21,144 bases of DNA from a virus. Every line of letters begins with the position of its first letter. Within the stretch, counting starts at the first letter, position 1. Under the pieces are notes generated by a model. The model did no database searches, was not told where the DNA came from, and worked only from the letters and a program-made list of their open reading frames with translations. Where the stretch lies: IMG/VR virus record IMGVR_UViG_3300036766_001638, positions 1 through 21,144 of that record, one strand, 5' to 3'. A program made the translations under genes and the position numbers. Shown in pieces: positions 6,548 to 21,144 of the stretch.

Positions 6548-7141
6548 ATGCTACGTAATTGTGATGGACAGCCACTAAAATTGGGATGCGGGGGAGGAGA
6601 AAGTCCTTTATCTCAGTTTGATCCAGAAAATCCTGACTTAAATCTTTTTAATTCTTTCGATGCAGAACTTATAAATATTGCAGGAACTCCGATATTCTAC
6701 TATGAACTTTTTATACAAAAGAACACTATAGACCCACTATATAGAGAGGATCGTGGCAAGATATGGGCCATTACGCCAATAGAGCTTAGAGGTTACTATG
6801 AGCCTATACCATCTCAAAATTATGTAAATATGTTCGGCACAGATGCTCCTGATGAAATGAAATTTGAATTTAATTATAGGGAAGTACTTAAAAAATTAGG
6901 ACATCCACCAAAATTAGGATCGAGATTGTTTACGCCTCACAAGAGAGAAAATTGGGTTATTGTTCAGCGTAATGTAGGTGAATTTAGGCTGTGGGGTGAA
7001 TTAAGGTTATTAATTATAGCCCAAAGATTCCAAGAATCTGTTACTACAAAAGAAGGAGCGGTCACACAAGGACAAGTTACACCACCAATTCATTTAAATG
7101 ATGGAGCATTATTTACTAATCCAGACTCTTCTAAATGTTAA
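6548..7141 (+). CDS. Putative neck / head-completion protein, T4 gp14-like
   Basis: 197 residues from ATG at 6548. After a Cys/Gly-rich N-terminus (MLRNCDGQPLKLGCGGG) comes a segment typical of neck proteins: YYELFIQKNTIDPLYREDRG (about 52-71), then PDEMKFEFNYREVLKKLG, GSRLFTPHKRENWVIVQRN and WGELRLLIIAQRFQES. This order (Y-L/F with D-x-LY-E, a GS/GD turn, then W-I/V strands) is what I associate with the gp14 family, which sits between portal and tail with gp13. Location between gp13-like and gp15 genes supports it. No Shine-Dalgarno; an AT-rich box (TATAATATA) lies 8-16 bases upstream. The 3' end overlaps the convergent nuclease-like gene by 11 bases. The family match is by pattern, not alignment. 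Confidence 0.55.
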   Translation: MLRNCDGQPLKLGCGGGESPLSQFDPENPDLNLFNSFDAELINIAGTPIFYYELFIQKNTIDPLYREDRGKIWAITPIELRGYYEPIPSQNYVNMFGTDAPDEMKFEFNYREVLKKLGHPPKLGSRLFTPHKRENWVIVQRNVGEFRLWGELRLLIIAQRFQESVTTKEGAVTQGQVTPPIHLNDGALFTNPDSSKC

Positions 7142-8459
7142 AAATCTGTCTAAAATAAGGTAAGCCGCCAAAACTTCTAATAGCTCTAAATAAAGTTGTA
7201 TTTTTTATTTCAGATTGCCTGGGGAAATGGCCTACGTCTGAAATCAGTTTTTTCAATTCCAACTCTACTTTATCAAAAGTCCAATATCCATTCCTATGCC
7301 TGCTAATATTAATATTCAATCTATCTTGAAAATGATAAATTCCACCAAACTGTCTTATTCCGTTAATCAATGGGTATTCATTTAATTTTTCAAGATCACT
7401 GAAAGAAGGGAATTTATTCAAATTTACAGTTATTAATTTAAGTTTATTTAAAACTTTTTCTTCAGTCCAAAAACCATCTTTAGTTTTATTTGGCGTACAC
7501 TCAAATTTATTAATAAAATATTCAGTTCCACCATATCTTCTTACGCCATTATAGAGTGAAATTTCATATCTCATCATTTCTTTTATTGTAGGAAATCTTC
7601 CTAGCTTGTTTATTAATTTATTTAAACTGTCTTCTACTTTAGCTTTCGACCAAAGTATAAATGAAGCTACACCTGTTTCAACCATTTTAATAAAATTGCC
7701 TTTTCTAGAAACATCAATACCATAAGAAGATAATGTTTCATCAAATATTTTTTCCATTTCGAGTAAAGGCTTAGTAAAAACATTATATTCAAAAGGCATT
7801 AAAATTAAACTATGTTCTTTGTAAAATAACTCTTTCTTTGCCCTTCTTAATGCATAAGAAACATTTCTATTATTTTGGCTGTTAGGATTAAATCCCCAAA
7901 TCTCTACAAATATACTACCTATTTTAAAATCATATTTCAGTCTTGTTTTATTTGGAATAATAATTTTATTTACCTCATGATTTATTCCTCTAGAACTAAG
8001 ATATTCATCAAAAAAATATTCATTAATACTATGTAAAAAATGCCCATCCGAAGCTTTAATATATTTAGAGCCAGAATCATATCCCATAATTCTCGATAGT
8101 TCTTTTATACCTCCTAGCCTAAATATAGGCTTAGAAATAGACTGTCCTAATTTTGCTTGTATTTCTTTTAAGGAAGGAAACCTATTGCCCGTTATTATAG
8201 ATTTAACAGCAGAAATTACATTATTTAAATCATTCCAATAATTGCGGGACTTTCTTTCAGTAGTTAAACTAAGCTTGGTAGCTATTTTTGCGGTTCCACC
8301 AAATTTCTTGTCAATTGCAGTTGCGGCGGATGGTCCTAATTTTTCTCTTATCACTTTCCTGGAAGGAAGAATATTATTTTCGCAAATAGACAGTAACTCT
8401 CTAGATAAGTTAGACCAATTATACCAATATAAATAAGAATTTTTATCACAATTGCTCAT
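7131..8459 (-). CDS. PD-(D/E)XK nuclease-like protein with five flanking W...P...GG repeats (putative free-standing homing endonuclease)
   Basis: 442 residues from ATG 8459. Five copies of a 45-55 residue repeat share an aromatic/Trp start, an FP or LP, a basic/acidic helix and GG followed by a helix. Two lie N-terminal (about 10-64 and 74-127; e.g. RFPSLKEIQAKLG, then FRLGG). Three lie C-terminal (about 269-320, 330-383, 392-442; e.g. GFWTEEKV, KFPSFSDL, IRQFGG). Between them, residues 138-248 carry a PD-(D/E)XK-like core: E147 in SINEYFF, D177 in YDF, E186 in VEIWG, and K208/K209 in RRAKKELFY. Similar repeats occur in algal and phage nucleic-acid-binding proteins. Inference: repeats bind DNA and the core cuts it, as in homing endonucleases. 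It runs against the tail genes on both sides, consistent with a mobile insertion. No Shine-Dalgarno is present. Confidence 0.6.
   Translation of the reverse strand: MSNCDKNSYLYWYNWSNLSRELLSICENNILPSRKVIREKLGPSAATAIDKKFGGTAKIATKLSLTTERKSRNYWNDLNNVISAVKSIITGNRFPSLKEIQAKLGQSISKPIFRLGGIKELSRIMGYDSGSKYIKASDGHFLHSINEYFFDEYLSSRGINHEVNKIIIPNKTRLKYDFKIGSIFVEIWGFNPNSQNNRNVSYALRRAKKELFYKEHSLILMPFEYNVFTKPLLEMEKIFDETLSSYGIDVSRKGNFIKMVETGVASFILWSKAKVEDSLNKLINKLGRFPTIKEMMRYEISLYNGVRRYGGTEYFINKFECTPNKTKDGFWTEEKVLNKLKLITVNLNKFPSFSDLEKLNEYPLINGIRQFGGIYHFQDRLNINISRHRNGYWTFDKVELELKKLISDVGHFPRQSEIKNTTLFRAIRSFGGLPYFRQIFNI
8428..8435 (+). promoter_or_regulatory. T4-type late promoter for the gp15-sheath-tube operon
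   Basis: Exact TATAAATA on the plus strand, 53 bases before the gp15-like ATG at 8489, giving a leader of about 48 bases with AAAGGA before the ATG. It lies inside the 5' coding end of the divergent nuclease-like gene. Its position at the head of the core tail operon makes it the most convincing late promoter in the window. Confidence 0.6.
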
Positions 8460-8488
8460 ATAGATAAAATAGTAATTTAAAGGAAACA

Positions 8489-9517
8489 ATGAATTCTAAG
8501 GAATCAAATCTTGAAAAATCTCTAGTAGATTGTGAAACCAAAGAGTTAACCAATTCTATAAATATAGACCCTGTGCCCAAGGAATGTGCAGATGATGGAT
8601 GGCCTAGTCAGAAGAGAGTAGCACAAAGACCATCTACGGATTGGAAACTTAAGCCTACTAGAAGAAAACTAGGAGTGGGACAGTCAGGAATTTGTGATCC
8701 CCTTATGACGGGACAAATTCTAAATGACCTTGATACCCCTAATAGAGAAGTAGTCTATCGTTACACAAGAGCTTTAAGAGGTGCAGATGAAGCAATGCTT
8801 GATTTATTTAGAAATACAGTAGTTTTAGATGAAGAAGGCAAAAGTCACGTAGTTCCTATTTTATGGGCAAGTCAAGAAAAAGCTGTATCTGCTATACTTC
8901 AAGATAATGTTCGCAAAGACAACAGCCTAGTGGTCGATAGAATAAGATTACCTATTATGGCAATATGGGCTAATCAATTAACTTTAGATCAAACAAGATT
9001 TACATATCAAAAAGCTTTATCTTTAATGGAGTGGTTAGACCCAGAAGGGGTAGCTGGTTTTACTTTACAAGAAAAGTTTCAAAAAGACACGATATTTGGT
9101 GTTACTAGAGGTTTGCCAATCAATATAAATTACACTTTGTATGTGTGGACACTCTACATTGAAGACATGAATCAGATTGTAGAACAGGTAATGTTAAAAT
9201 TTTCACCAGTTGCATACATACGAGTTAGAGGAGTATGGTGGGAAGTTATAGTTACGATGGACGGAACAGCTAATAATTTGGATGTAGAGCCTGGAGATGC
9301 TAAGTTAAGAGTTATCAAATATCAGTTTAATATGACAGCCAAAACATACATTCCTCAGCCGATTACTCGACTTAAACCTCCTCTGCCTGTACCTTGCGAG
9401 AATCCTTGTCCAAATACAGAAGAAACGCCATTAGCTGATATGCCTCCAGAGGAATTTGACCAAACATTAAAGGAAATAGAAAAACAAGTTAAGAATCTAA
9501 AACAATGGGAATTTTAA
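8489..9517 (+). CDS. Tail sheath stabilisation / completion protein, T4 gp15-like
   Basis: 342 residues; T4 gp15 is about 272. gp15 forms the hexameric ring that caps the finished tail and joins it to the neck. Family features in order: YRYTRALRGADEAMLDLFRN (about 91-110), the strand VVPILWASQEKAVSAIL, the run VVDRIRLPIMAIWANQLTLD, then LPININYTLYVWTLYIEDMN followed by QIVEQVMLKFSP, which is the most diagnostic (gp15 has a Y-L-I-T-Y-EDM-QIVEQIL-F-P pattern). The N-terminal 85 residues and the C-terminal acidic tail with PCENPCP are additions. AAAGGA precedes ATG by 5 bases. Its last 13 bases overlap the sheath start, suggesting translational coupling. Confidence 0.8.
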   Translation: MNSKESNLEKSLVDCETKELTNSINIDPVPKECADDGWPSQKRVAQRPSTDWKLKPTRRKLGVGQSGICDPLMTGQILNDLDTPNREVVYRYTRALRGADEAMLDLFRNTVVLDEEGKSHVVPILWASQEKAVSAILQDNVRKDNSLVVDRIRLPIMAIWANQLTLDQTRFTYQKALSLMEWLDPEGVAGFTLQEKFQKDTIFGVTRGLPININYTLYVWTLYIEDMNQIVEQVMLKFSPVAYIRVRGVWWEVIVTMDGTANNLDVEPGDAKLRVIKYQFNMTAKTYIPQPITRLKPPLPVPCENPCPNTEETPLADMPPEEFDQTLKEIEKQVKNLKQWEF

Positions 9518-16683: not shown

Positions 16684-17424
16684 ATGTTGAAGGATCGTTA
16701 TCAAAATCCAGTTATAAATGACACTGTTAAACTTAATATATTTGTTTATAATTCAAATCAGTTTGCAGAATTAAGTAGTGTAAACAAGGTAGAAATCTAT
16801 TATCTCGATCCTACAATGATGTTGCCCTCAAATCCAGACGGCAGAACTCTTGTGCAAACTATTCCTGGAGGAAGCGTAACCAATCCTGTTGATGGAGAAT
16901 ATACATTAGATTTATTCTTAGACCCCCTAATTTATACGCAAACAGGAAGATATTTAGATGTTTGGTATGTTAACTTTTCCGCAACCGATCCTGAAGCCAC
17001 TCTAGAACATTTATTTCAGATATTTCCTGACCTGTGGTTTACAACACCAATACCAGTGGTTTATGACTTTAATTTTTATTTCCAACCCAATAAATTTAGG
17101 AAAGGCACTAAAAAATTCATAGAAATTGAAATTATTCCTAATGTTCCTAGGGCTACTGATTTATGTCAATACTATGAGAACTTGGCTATTTCTGCAATTT
17201 TATTAGTGTCAATCTCACAACACTGTGGCGAATGTGTCCCTTGTGAACCAGACCTGCAACTTGTAGTTGATGAAGAGCCTACTAACTACAGAGAAAAAAA
17301 CAGAGCTTTTTATTATATAGATACAGATAAGTTCGACTGTGGAGTTTATGACATTTGGTTCAAATTAACTTTTGGAACCAACGTTTATGTTTCAGATAAA
17401 AATCAAATTGTAATTTACGAATAA
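16684..17424 (+). CDS. Putative virion structural protein, beta-rich
   Basis: 246 residues, family not recognised. Nearly all predicted beta strand: NDTVKLNIFVYNSNQFAEL, KVEIYYLDP, GEYTLDLFLD, RYLDVWYVNFSATDP, then PVVYDFNFYFQPNKFRKGTK and KFIEIEIIPNV; C-terminal YDIWFKLTFGTNVYVSDKN. This looks like two immunoglobulin-like or carrier domains, each with a YDV/YDIW strand. A Cys cluster (QHCGECVPCEP) sits at the junction around residue 180. GAGG precedes ATG by 8 bases. It lies between the gp26-like pair and a tube-fold gene, 7 bases before the latter, so a baseplate or tail-tip role is likely. Confidence 0.65.
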   Translation: MLKDRYQNPVINDTVKLNIFVYNSNQFAELSSVNKVEIYYLDPTMMLPSNPDGRTLVQTIPGGSVTNPVDGEYTLDLFLDPLIYTQTGRYLDVWYVNFSATDPEATLEHLFQIFPDLWFTTPIPVVYDFNFYFQPNKFRKGTKKFIEIEIIPNVPRATDLCQYYENLAISAILLVSISQHCGECVPCEPDLQLVVDEEPTNYREKNRAFYYIDTDKFDCGVYDIWFKLTFGTNVYVSDKNQIVIYE

Positions 17425-17431
17425 GGAAAAA

Positions 17432-17887
17432 ATGGATAAATTTAAGATTAAAGAAAGTAGAGTAAAGACAAAGAAAGAGATAGGAGTAATGCCACAATGG
17501 AGTCCAGAAGCTCCAATTCCTCGTACATTTAGATGGTTATTGTCATCTAAGCATTATCCAAATATTCAACTTTGGATGAAATCCGTTAAAACAGACTATT
17601 TAAACAAAACTATTGATATTCAAGTATACGATGATGCAGCAGGCGTAGTATTTAATTGGATACAATCTAGTCATGCTGATGATATTTTGACAATGGCCCA
17701 TCTTGACGCTGTAGAAATGCCATTTTGTGCCTGTGAATTCCATAATCTAATGCTAGTCGGCCATAACGCAGATTATGATTATTCTAAAAATGACGTACTT
17801 ACTCATTACGTCAAAATCAAGTATGAATCAATGACAAGACTAAATTTAGACCACAAATTTTGTCTGGATGAGATGATACCAGCTTGA
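17432..17887 (+). CDS. Third tube-fold protein, possible gp54/gp19-type baseplate-tube junction protein
   Basis: 151 residues, close to T4 gp19 (163). It shares order and spacing with the two tube genes at 10779 and 11486: PRTFRWLLSSKHYP (cf. FKRKFRWTL), NKTIDIQVYDDAAGVVFNWI (cf. strand then FDWI), a central EMPFCACEFHNLMLVGHNAD, then DVLTHYVKIKYESMTRLNLD (cf. LTLRYRNL). The middle differs and the DGCGQ loop is absent. In T4, gp54 has the tube fold and starts tube growth from the baseplate; the position after baseplate genes fits that role. AAGG lies 6 bases before the ATG. The TTGACA of the next promoter overlaps its stop codon. Confidence 0.65.
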   Translation: MDKFKIKESRVKTKKEIGVMPQWSPEAPIPRTFRWLLSSKHYPNIQLWMKSVKTDYLNKTIDIQVYDDAAGVVFNWIQSSHADDILTMAHLDAVEMPFCACEFHNLMLVGHNADYDYSKNDVLTHYVKIKYESMTRLNLDHKFCLDEMIPA

Positions 17888-17911
17888 CAATGCTGGTCAC
17901 GCAAGTACAAT
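17884..17911 (+). promoter_or_regulatory. Sigma70-type promoter for the DGQHR gene
   Basis: Perfect -35 TTGACA at 17884-17889, 16-base spacer, -10 TACAAT at 17906-17911. It lies at the end of the tube-fold gene and reads toward the gene at 18024, leaving a leader of about 105 bases. An inverted repeat ACCAGC/GCTGGT (17878-17897) overlaps the -35 box and could be an operator. Confidence 0.65.
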
Positions 17912-18023
17912 GATTACAGAGCGATGCAAAAATTGAAAAACTTTGAAAATTCTGCTTTACAATGTAAATTTACCAAGTAGAATCAACGATATAAACAAAA
18001 CTTCCACAAACTGGAGTATAACC

Positions 18024-19232
18024 ATGTCGAAAACGAAAACCGAAGAAAACGTCCGCACTTCACAGATCGCCTTCCTTTCCGAGAAAACTGGTGGCATCCA
18101 TCCAACGCTTGGTCAAATAGTTAACCAGCAGGTATTACAGAAGTTAGGTAAATTGGGCATCACCGATAGTAAGCCAGTAGTAAAGCTGGCTCCCGTCAGT
18201 GATGGGAAGCCATTGCCGGAAGCACCAAAATGGCCTGACCACTGGCCTGAATGCCCTGCCGAGTATGATGTTGAGGAATGGAAGCGTTCCTTGGAAAACA
18301 TGGAATATTACCTTCAAAAAACCAAAGATGATGGCAATACGAAGCCGTGGTTCCATTATCCCAAATTTACTCATCAGTATTCGGAACTCGTTTTTGTCAT
18401 GCCCGACATGGGTGTAAAGCTACTGGAATTCAATCCTATCAACCGTGGCAAGAAGATGCGGTGGGTAGAATCCCTCAAGCGAGATTTCCAGGCTGATCGT
18501 TGGCTGCAAACGCATGAATCCATTGCTATCAACAAGTTAGGCAACATGCATGATGGGCAACATCGTGCTGACGCCCTTGTACAAAGTGGCAAGGGCTGGC
18601 CTCTTTACATTACTTTCAATGTTCCTCCATCGGGTATTTATGCTACGGATTCTGGAGATCGTAGAAGTGTAAATGAAAAATTGGCACTTCTCTTCCCAGA
18701 CAGCAAAATCACTCAAAAAGCGGCAGCACTTTGTCGTTCTGCTATGAGCGGATTGAATGCTCGTGGACTCCGTTACACAGAATCGGAATTGGCTGATTTC
18801 GTCATCAAGTACAAAGATGCTGTAGATTGGGCCTCCGATGCCCTCAAGGGGCATCGCAGCGATACCCAGGCGGTAATTTTCAAGGCTTTGCTTTGGTGGG
18901 GACAAGAGAAGATTGAGCCATTCGTGGAAAGATTGGTGAAAGTTAAGTGGGAGAATGAAGGCGACCCTGCCCGTGCGCTTTATTTGTGGATTCAGAAAAG
19001 CAAAAATGACAATCGCAAGAAATCCTATGCAACTCCTCTAAGTTATTACAAGAAATCTCTTTGTGCTGTATATGCCTTTATTGAAGGTAAAGAAACTAAG
19101 AAGTTGCATGAAAAGAAGGAAGATGTCTTTGAATGGTTGCCAGGATGGGAAATTCCATCAGGAAGTCCATGTAATGGCAAAATTCTACTCCCTAAGCCAG
19201 AAGTCACGGAGCAGAATACTCAAACCAACTAA
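18024..19232 (+). CDS. DGQHR-domain (ParB/Srx-like fold) protein, independent GC-richer cassette
   Basis: 402 residues from ATG 18024, chosen because GGAG lies 9 bases upstream and the sequence from 17943 to 18023 looks non-coding. The core carries HDGQHRADALVQSG (176-189), then LYITFNVPPSGIYATDSGDR and RSVNEKLALLF (to about 223). This is the DGQHR motif of ParB/Srx-fold proteins, some nucleases or NTPases, with a conserved D-G-R patch 30 residues later. A helical C-terminus follows. The role is unknown; relatives include DndB-type and plasmid/phage proteins. Codons are visibly richer in G and C (CTC, GCC, CGT, GGC) than the AT-rich neighbours. The gene has its own sigma70 promoter and terminator, so it looks like a recently acquired, independently expressed unit. 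Confidence 0.7.
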   Translation: MSKTKTEENVRTSQIAFLSEKTGGIHPTLGQIVNQQVLQKLGKLGITDSKPVVKLAPVSDGKPLPEAPKWPDHWPECPAEYDVEEWKRSLENMEYYLQKTKDDGNTKPWFHYPKFTHQYSELVFVMPDMGVKLLEFNPINRGKKMRWVESLKRDFQADRWLQTHESIAINKLGNMHDGQHRADALVQSGKGWPLYITFNVPPSGIYATDSGDRRSVNEKLALLFPDSKITQKAAALCRSAMSGLNARGLRYTESELADFVIKYKDAVDWASDALKGHRSDTQAVIFKALLWWGQEKIEPFVERLVKVKWENEGDPARALYLWIQKSKNDNRKKSYATPLSYYKKSLCAVYAFIEGKETKKLHEKKEDVFEWLPGWEIPSGSPCNGKILLPKPEVTEQNTQTN

Positions 19233-19248
19233 AATTTTAAACAAATTG

Positions 19249-19280
19249 AAAAAAGGCGTTCTAAAAAGAACGCCTTTTTT
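19249..19280 (+). terminator. Rho-independent terminator after DGQHR gene
   Basis: Perfect 8-bp stem GGCGTTCT (19255-19262) and AGAACGCC (19267-19274) with AAAA loop, flanked by six A and six T. It closes the DGQHR unit and isolates it from the next gene. Confidence 0.92.
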
Positions 19281-19282
19281 CA

Positions 19283-19311
19283 TTTCCAATCATCCAGTAG
19301 CCAAGTATAAT
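19283..19311 (+). promoter_or_regulatory. Sigma70-type promoter for the ATPase-metallopeptidase pair
   Basis: -10 TATAAT at 19306-19311 with TTTCCA at 19283-19288 (4 of 6 matches to TTGACA, 17-base spacer). The -10 region shares CAAGTAYAATGA with the promoter at 17902-17913. It lies right after the terminator and before AAAGGAG of the gene at 19330. Confidence 0.55.
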
Positions 19312-19329: not shown

Positions 19330-20820
19330 ATGGCATTAATGGAAAGAGAAATTCGGGATGAAAAACTGGATTTTTGGATTAAAAACGGCTGGAACGCTCT
19401 CTTTATTGGACGGCATGGGGCGGGCAAAACTGCAAGAGTTGTACAAGCTTTTGAAAGAAATAAGCTCAGTTGGAAATATTTTAGTGGTGCTACATTGGAC
19501 CCTTGGTGTGATTTTGTGGGGGTGCCAAAAGCAGTAACTAAAGAAGATGGCACGCAGTATCTTGATTTTGTATTGCCTAAAGATTTTCAAGATGATGCAA
19601 TTGAAGCTATATTTATTGATGAATATAATAGATCGCACAAGAAAATTAGAAATGCTATTATGGAATTAATCCAATTCCAAAGCATTAATGGAAGAAAATT
19701 TCACAAATTAAAAATTGTATGGGCAGCAATTAATCCAGAAGAAGAAAACGAATATCAAGTAGAGCCTTTGGATTTCGCACAAAAAGATCGTTTTCATGTT
19801 CATGTCAATGTTCCATATAAACCATCATTAGATTGGTTTATCAAAACTTTTGATGAAAAGACTGCCAAGGGAGCAATCGCTTGGTGGAATGAACTAGAAG
19901 AAGATCAAAAGAAACTGGTAAGTCCACGACGCCTAGAGTACGCTCTTAGAATATATCAAAAAGGCGGCGACATTAAGGACGTAGTGCCTCACAGTTGTAA
20001 TGCCAGCAAATTAATAGGTGTTTTAGCACATGGGCCAGTTAAAGATAAACTTAGAGATTTGTATGAAAGCAAAGCAACTGATGAAGCAACAAAGTTTTTG
20101 TTAGTTGAAAACAATTATGCTTCTTCCATCAAGTATATGTCATCAGTGCCTTCAGATGTTAAAGTTTCACTTAATGATTGGATGAAATTTTTCATTCCTT
20201 TACTCTCGCCGGAAAAATTATCATCACTAATAGTAGTAGATGGTATGATTTTAGATTTCACGGTAGAGCATATTGACCAGTATCCTCAATTTGCTAAAGT
20301 TATTCAGGAAATTGTAGCCGCTGACCAGCACCACAAATTAGTCAGGCGCATCAAAAAAGTCATTGGAACTAATAGAACTTTGGCAGGCCAATATGGTAGT
20401 TTAAATAATATAGCCGCTGATGCTCCGTTCTTTAGCAAGAAGCCCTCTAGTATGCCTTGGAGTCAAAAACTAGCAACTTTGATGGCAATGTCAATTAACA
20501 CAACTCCACAAAGAGTGGATATTTATTGCCAAGTTTCTAGTACTATTCCTCAAAATTTAAGTGAAGCCGAAGCCATTAATACTTTGACTCTTTTTGACAA
20601 CATTGCATCAAGATCATGGTCTAGGAGTTTGAAAGCCAAAATGCCTCATTTAGTAGGAGTTATTAATCATTGTATAAATTGTATTCATACTGCAAATGGA
20701 AATTCATGGGAAGAAATTCTTGTTAAGCATGGCGTCCACATTCAAAACTTGCTTTCCAAACTCAAGGAAGTAGAATTAGATAAGAGGCTATTGTGTCCAG
20801 CAAAGGTAGGTATTAAATGA
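19330..20820 (+). CDS. MoxR-type AAA+ ATPase
   Basis: 496 residues from ATG 19330, chosen because AAAGGAG precedes it and the upstream frame crosses a terminator. Walker A GRHGAGKT (27-34), Walker B AIFIDEYNR (93-101), then IRNAIMELIQFQSINGRKF, sensor 1 VWAAINPEEE (130-139) and the Arg finger region AQKDRFHVHV (150-159) are the standard MoxR/RavA/CobS-type order. The C-terminal 240 residues are helical. MoxR ATPases act as chaperones or metal-insertion motors with a VWA-domain partner; the overlapping next gene is such a partner. Phage MoxR/CobS genes are known in T4-like cyanophages, but their role here is not shown. ATG of the next gene overlaps its TGA. Confidence 0.88.
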   Translation: MALMEREIRDEKLDFWIKNGWNALFIGRHGAGKTARVVQAFERNKLSWKYFSGATLDPWCDFVGVPKAVTKEDGTQYLDFVLPKDFQDDAIEAIFIDEYNRSHKKIRNAIMELIQFQSINGRKFHKLKIVWAAINPEEENEYQVEPLDFAQKDRFHVHVNVPYKPSLDWFIKTFDEKTAKGAIAWWNELEEDQKKLVSPRRLEYALRIYQKGGDIKDVVPHSCNASKLIGVLAHGPVKDKLRDLYESKATDEATKFLLVENNYASSIKYMSSVPSDVKVSLNDWMKFFIPLLSPEKLSSLIVVDGMILDFTVEHIDQYPQFAKVIQEIVAADQHHKLVRRIKKVIGTNRTLAGQYGSLNNIAADAPFFSKKPSSMPWSQKLATLMAMSINTTPQRVDIYCQVSSTIPQNLSEAEAINTLTLFDNIASRSWSRSLKAKMPHLVGVINHCINCIHTANGNSWEEILVKHGVHIQNLLSKLKEVELDKRLLCPAKVGIK

Positions 20821-21144
20821 TTACAGCAGAACAATGGATGGACATTAGCAGCAATCTAGAGCATCACCACGCATTGTTCTATCAATGTTGGCAATTAGGC
20901 AAGCCGATTTTCACAGAAGAAATTCCTACAGCAGCGATCCGTTTTAGCGATGGGGAATGCATAGAATTCTTATTTAATCCAAAATTTTGGGAATCACTAG
21001 ATGATTACAGTAAATTATTCGTAATTTCCCACGAATGTCTACATGTGATTTTAAATCATGGCCTTAGAACACTTAATCAAAAATTACCAAAATTAACAAA
21101 TCAATGCTTGGACATTCCTATTAATCATATGTTAATTACCAGAT
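20817..21144 (+). CDS. DUF2201/VWA-like putative metallopeptidase (partial at right edge)
   Basis: 109 codons plus one base to the window edge. The reading frame begins at ATG 20817 in an ATGA overlap with the ATPase stop. The N-terminus is ITAEQWMDISSNLEHHHALF; a zinc-peptidase motif follows in FVISHECLHVILNHGLR (HExxH, residues about 73-77, then a further His), and LTNQCLDIPINHML matches the CD-x-x-IN segment of the DUF2201 N-terminal domain. Family members carry a VWA-like C-terminal domain that would lie beyond the edge. MoxR plus DUF2201/VWA pairs are common in bacteria and some phages. The unit may modify or activate another protein complex. Confidence 0.78.
   Translation, partial: MITAEQWMDISSNLEHHHALFYQCWQLGKPIFTEEIPTAAIRFSDGECIEFLFNPKFWESLDDYSKLFVISHECLHVILNHGLRTLNQKLPKLTNQCLDIPINHMLITR

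Follow-up and report, generated by a model that had tools for sequence, protein, structure and literature searches.

DndB, a protein with a DGQHR motif, binds promoter palindromes (PMC4507180), and DpdB has been termed a ParB-like ATPase (PMC12839542). DndB and GmrS have a DGQHR-type loop in common, which PMC4619093 ties to the ParB/sulfiredoxin (Srx) fold, where sulfiredoxin carries the loop sequence GCHR, and which according to the same source includes Osa and GmrS as members with actual or predicted NTPase and nuclease activity. For group 2.2 jumbo phages, a chaperone pair consisting of MoxR and VWA proteins has been proposed to act in virion assembly (PMC7824862). Judged by their titles, none of the papers found on DGQHR concerns huge phages, and a literature search for LR756511, an accession examined below, found none. 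Here, we describe a DGQHR protein encoded in a virus record of 21,144 bases, which was analysed over its full length and is referred to as the window. The protein shares the DGQHR-type loop with DndB and GmrS; however, searches of Pfam and NCBIfam gave no match to the DndB/DGQHR domain (TIGR03187, PF14072), GmrS (DUF262) or DpdB at E up to 1, and in contrast to the loop described for sulfiredoxin the DGQHR loop is free of cysteine. In structure predictions, its N-domain resembles both the ParB, Noc and KorB CTPases and sulfiredoxin and the Srx-like kinases (SbnI, free serine kinase), but it differs from the former in giving no Pfam ParB_N match. The AAA and metallopeptidase-VWA genes that follow fit the description of the MoxR-VWA pair, whereas the DGQHR gene lies outside the pair as described, and the term 'ParB' does not occur in the main text of PMC7824862.

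Based on profile matches, the window encodes tail sheath, tail tube, baseplate-hub and late-sigma-like genes, and the features around the DGQHR gene are listed in Table 1. The first-pass annotation had described this gene, with its GGAG box, as a self-contained cassette of 402 codons that is richer in G/C-ending codons than its surroundings. Both the gene and the box were found as described, and so was the composition, since the gene has a GC content of 0.452 and a third-position GC content (GC3) of 0.449, compared to 0.294-0.395 and 0.177-0.269, respectively, for the seven structural genes of the window; the GC3 of the AAA gene on its 3' side is 0.278. An Rfam search gave no match. Elsewhere in the window, positions 10-537 contain dense short repeats of CTACTTGAGCTACT within open reading frames (ORFs) encoding SYYL/NYYL runs, and this 14-mer is present in 20 copies in the window. 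A 452-aa gene on the minus strand (7131-8489) sits amid the structural genes, shows a homing-endonuclease-associated repeat just under the Pfam cut-off, and has no match in the comparison with locus L001.

Table 1. Coordinates in the window of the DGQHR gene, its neighbours and its putative expression signals.
Feature	Position	Strand	Basis or remark
g246, 246-aa gene 5' of the DGQHR gene, conserved context	16684..17424	+	locus comparison
151-aa gene 5' of the DGQHR gene, weak tail-tube-like match (E 0.041)	17432..17887	+	
TTGACA-N16-TACAAT, promoter of the first-pass annotation, 11/12 consensus; possible secondary promoter	17884..17911	+	sequence pattern
TTTACA-N16-TAGAAT, preferred promoter, -68 from the DGQHR start	17956..17983	+	recurs in relatives
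GGAG ribosome-binding site of the DGQHR gene	18013..18016	+	sequence pattern
DGQHR gene, 402 aa, PHROG 5931	18024..19232	+	ATG at 18024
Intrinsic terminator of the DGQHR gene	19247..19282	+	16 uninterrupted pairs, 6 G-C, 4-nt loop
TTTCCA-N17-TATAAT, sigma70-like promoter of the AAA gene, 10/12	19283..19311	+	sequence pattern
MoxR/CobS-like AAA+ ATPase gene, phrog_1297, neighbour	19330..20820	+	AAA_3 Pfam match below cut-off
Start of metallopeptidase-VWA gene (DUF2201_N in relatives), truncated by the window end	20817..21144	+	

A homolog that is 51% identical was found in LR756511.1 (W01), a 595-kb uncultured phage, and further orthologs were obtained from IMG/VR contigs. The final set comprised ten loci: the window, L001, and eight loci kept from a listing of ten, from which L022 and L025 were dropped because their match figures equal those of L021 and L027, which they appear to duplicate; L003-L009 represent loci among L021-L027 in shorter form. 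In all nine relatives, the ortholog is located after the hub and g246 homologs, and in seven of them it is followed by the AAA and VWA genes, L027 being without the pair and the sequence of L091 stopping at the gene. L028 and L092 have additional sequence separating the DGQHR gene from g246, and so, less markedly, do L024 and L091. The DGQHR protein distances follow those of g246 (Mantel r 0.906) and of the hub protein (r 0.880; permutation p 0.0005), and the FastTree topologies disagree at some weakly supported splits. The first-pass annotation had read the cassette as a moron, a recently acquired gene of foreign composition. An own promoter and terminator are indeed recognizable as sequence patterns, and there is a GC contrast, as expected for a moron; however, the gene is not sporadic but occupies the same position in nine of nine relatives, an outcome that the first-pass annotation itself had named as contradicting its reading, it co-diverges with g246 and hub, and the GC3 excess, although real, is present in all ten loci. 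A recent import was therefore rejected, and we consider it extremely unlikely. The relatives were retrieved with the DGQHR gene as query, so members of the lineage that do not carry it could have been missed, and the claim is consequently that the gene is not recent, rather than that it is universal. Scans of genome contigs confirmed no bacterial relatives, one weak plasmid match was obtained, and a search of viral contigs with the AAA protein as query confirmed no match. Judged from these comparisons, the DGQHR gene is old and stably inherited in a lineage of huge tailed phages, and it may have been gained before this lineage split, as an ancient acquisition.

As regards transcription, the promoter of the first-pass annotation is present, with TTGACA at 17884-17889, a 16-nt spacer and TACAAT ending at 17911. 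It shares bases with the stop codon that ends the preceding 151-aa gene and lies at -140, 72 nt 5' of the TTTACA site. Counting both strands and spacers of 15-19 nt, the window contains one site with at least 11 of the 12 consensus bases, compared to 2.0 expected, and the probability of such a site by chance in a 156-nt stretch on the strand of the gene is 0.0065. This site has no recurring counterpart in the upstream regions of the relatives. What does recur there is a putative promoter of the form TTTACR-N16-TANNNT about 70 nt 5' of the start. Using the strict pattern TTTACN-N15 to N17-TANNN[T/C] within 150 nt 5' of the start, it was found in six of the ten loci, and was absent from L021, L023, L026 and L091; in random 150-nt stretches of the six positive loci the pattern has a frequency of 0.7-4.2%. 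In five of these six, including the window, its position ranges from -68 to -74 and its spacer is 16 nt long, and L001 differs with a position of -95 and a 17-nt spacer. A position weight matrix (PWM) based on promoter sites of the relatives picked by eye gave a best site with a score of 8.87, versus 8.02 for the TTGACA site, but this is weak evidence (p 0.052), with higher-scoring sites elsewhere in the window, and the argument thus rests on the recurrence of the strict pattern. We found no conserved operator-like palindrome upstream of the gene. The late boxes that had been ascribed to the flanking genes were not recovered: the upstream regions inspected by eye contain no recurring late box, and on the downstream side a separate sigma70-like promoter precedes the AAA gene.

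A terminator was found downstream as annotated previously, except that its stem is formed by 16 uninterrupted pairs instead of 8 bp. Among random stretches of the same loci, 16 of 2000 had a sum of stem and GC pairs of at least 16 together with at least 5 T. A downstream hairpin is present in eight of the nine loci where this can be judged, the sequence of L091 stopping 49 nt past the gene, and a strict terminator test was positive in six of the ten loci. L028 has an imperfect hairpin with a T tail that scored low in this test, L092 has a GC-rich hairpin without T tail, and L027 has no hairpin downstream of the gene. Since the stem sequences vary while the structure is kept, the comparison suggests that selection for termination acts on this hairpin.

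In all ten loci, including those of phages with 57% GC, the GC3 of the DGQHR gene exceeded that of every structural gene scored in the locus (Wilcoxon p 0.002; two structural genes scored in L091 and up to seven in the window). The difference is large in L021 (0.639 versus 0.435 for the highest structural gene) and L028 (0.922 versus 0.780), and less than 0.03 in L024 (0.498 versus 0.476) and L092 (0.873 versus 0.857). With proteins this diverged, one would expect synonymous sites to have adopted the local composition long ago, and it is therefore more likely that lasting selection, rather than foreign origin, accounts for the preference for G/C-ending codons. An overlapping antisense gene was set aside as cause of the high GC3, because the antisense ORFs vary in length from one locus to the next (122 aa in the window, 64 in L001, 239 in L003 and 245 in L008). 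Another possibility is that the gene encodes a highly expressed virion or injected protein, so that its codon bias would reflect abundance, in line with the location among tail genes and the strength of the bias. However, the major capsid genes of W01 and of G001, an IMG/VR record of 340,934 bp, prefer C-ending two-fold codons and use 7-8% G in four-fold boxes, compared to 23-31% G for the DGQHR genes of these two phages. The codon pattern is thus not that of an abundant late protein; translational selection of this type was rejected, and a virion role of this kind appears highly unlikely.

The codon pattern of the DGQHR gene was also compared with that of genome blocks. In G001, it came first among the 173 genes that lie outside the training blocks in codon likeness to the block at 276-300 kb, and in W01 it ranked 28 of 367 for early-class codons, with the AAA gene (31) and a small paralog (38) scoring almost as well. 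The early and late blocks were picked by position after inspection of the genomes, which makes this score exploratory, and the G001 gene was added to the codon tests by hand, as the ORF picker had discarded it as an overlapping ORF. The earlier suggestion of an early gene agrees with the host-type promoter and with the codon rank in G001, 'early' being a class that is defined here by a sequence block. Of the 54 exact copies of TTGCAATTGTACCA in G001, 52 are located on the minus strand of 275-337 kb (L072-L075), a GC3-rich block, many of them about 50 nt or less 5' of an ATG, and two lie elsewhere in the 340 kb examined. The element resembles a phage-specific promoter or binding box. TAAAGCTGTACT is apparently its counterpart in W01, where 24 of 26 copies are in the first 20 kb of LR756511.1 (L029), also the GC3-richest block, and these repeat-bearing blocks of the two phages look like early regions. 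A search for a T7-like RNA polymerase as reader of the G001 repeat gave no match, and neither did the control. Both phages also contain a tmRNA gene and large tRNA arrays (L040-L043 and L050 in LR756511.1, L064 in G001), a single 20-kb stretch holding 31 tRNA genes in the former and 16 in the latter.

To return to the protein, it matched PHROG 5931 with an E-value of 1.8e-25 (residues 122-363, profile positions 12-264 of 282). No Pfam family scored above cut-off, with ParB_N and PF14072 giving no match at E up to 1, nor was there an NCBIfam match, TIGR03187 included, at E up to 1; a below-cut-off Pfam match to an Rv2179c-like family (E 0.017) was set aside as chance, and PADLOC and PDB sequence searches gave no match. 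Structure models place a ParB/Srx-fold domain at about residues 114-213, with DGQHR at 177-181, and a helical C-terminal domain at about 230-355. In an alignment of nine sequences, eight contain DGQHR and L091 contains DGQNR, so that D177, G178, Q179 and R181 are invariant and H180 is not. The better of two AlphaFold2 models, based on this nine-sequence alignment, covers residues 62-390 with a pLDDT of 83.6 and a pTM of 0.77. Both models show a beta-alpha-alpha-beta-beta-alpha-beta core with a DGxxR-type loop before a helix. Among the best VIA matches, 26 of 27 for the first model and 24 of 25 for the better model were ParB, Noc, KorB, PadC, sulfiredoxin or Srx-like kinases, the odd one being the uncharacterised Atu1540, with Z-scores of 4-6, a range that is flagged by the tool. 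Foldseek gave no match to the PDB below E 0.001, its best match being ParB:CDP (E 0.018, probability 0.96), over about 230 columns reaching into the helical domain. Among the Foldseek matches to viral models, two are named 'helix-turn-helix DNA binding domain protein' and one 'ParB-like nuclease domain protein'. The ParB/Srx fold that was guessed before is therefore what nearly all top structural matches show, at modest scores; the models support this fold for the N-domain, and the DGQHR protein is probably a nucleotide-binding, DNA-associated protein.

PHROG 5931 was also matched by relatives in Vibrio, Mycobacterium, Moraxella, Microcystis, Brevundimonas and Pseudomonas phages. Compared to this family at large, the proteins of the window's lineage are extended at the N-terminus by about 115 residues, their gene keeps its place in the tail region, and half-paralogs occur as split copies. 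Directly after the family gene, the Vibrio and Microcystis phages encode a protein with a ParB_N domain, and Mycobacterium phage Mercurio encodes a RecB-like nuclease and a RecT-like protein; in the phages of Brevundimonas, Moraxella and Pseudomonas, the genes next to it are hypothetical. Nicotinate phosphoribosyltransferases can serve NAD+-based counter-defence, and Vibrio phage eugene has such a gene three genes upstream of its family member. This neighbour, together with the activities, known or predicted, of Osa and GmrS (PMC4619093), would fit a DNA nickase or nuclease, or a counter-defence protein that has host or modified DNA as its target. Yet, PADLOC gave no match, and apart from the eugene gene no annotated defence or counter-defence neighbour was found in the six phages, in which most genes are unnamed. 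We regard this explanation as rather unlikely, and the data neither support nor exclude the anti-defence role that had been proposed for the gene.

The main rival explanation, although still an unlikely one, is that the DGQHR protein is a partner or adaptor of the MoxR AAA+/metallopeptidase-VWA chaperone pair and would act in virion assembly or protein remodelling, which would agree with the role proposed for such pairs in PMC7824862. The pair adjoins the DGQHR gene in eight of the nine loci with continuing sequence, the window included, and in L001, L021, L023, L024 and L026 the VWA gene is closely followed by a short paralog of the C-terminal half, which in L028 is found farther away. However, L027 has both DGQHR-type genes without the pair, which weakens this explanation; there was no AAA match on its entire 85-kb record, which is possibly a fragment. 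Moreover, the DGQHR gene has a separate promoter and terminator, and the PHROG 5931 genes of the six other phages are found in other contexts. Stand-alone paralogs of the N- and C-terminal halves were observed in L028 (16386-16853 and 17620-18573) and LR756511.1 (106964-107347), and the stand-alone N-halves of W01 and L028 do not contain the DGQHR motif.

Taking the evidence together, we favour a reading in which the DGQHR gene forms an ancestral, insulated one-gene transcription unit within the tail/baseplate region that has been inherited vertically, as its position and codon preference are conserved, it co-diverges with its neighbours, and its promoter and terminator recur among relatives. 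Its transcription would depend on host sigma70 and precede the late sigma programme, and would probably be early, the window itself encoding a late-type sigma factor, and its mRNA would be translated with early-class codons. The DGQHR loop may then bind a nucleotide, and the protein may associate with DNA as a nucleotide-switched factor in the regulation, segregation or protection of phage DNA. That the gene is ancestral and its product both adopts the ParB/Srx fold and associates with DNA has, taken jointly, a probability that we put just above even. A bolder version, which we consider quite unlikely, would be that lasting selection maintains two codon dialects in these phages, with G/C-ending codons frequent in the early and scarce in the late dialect, and that the DGQHR gene uses the early dialect and serves as an insulated switch within the late block, encoding a nucleotide-gated ParB-like DNA clamp that couples the state of the phage DNA to the change from host to phage sigma factor.

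For the reading of phage genomes, this locus indicates that a cassette with promoter, terminator and GC contrast need not be a recent import, as all three look ancestral here. Provided that the codon contrast reflects the time of expression, the codon class of genes may serve to read the expression programmes of uncultured huge phages. PHROG 5931 stands out as an uncharacterised phage family with a predicted ParB fold.
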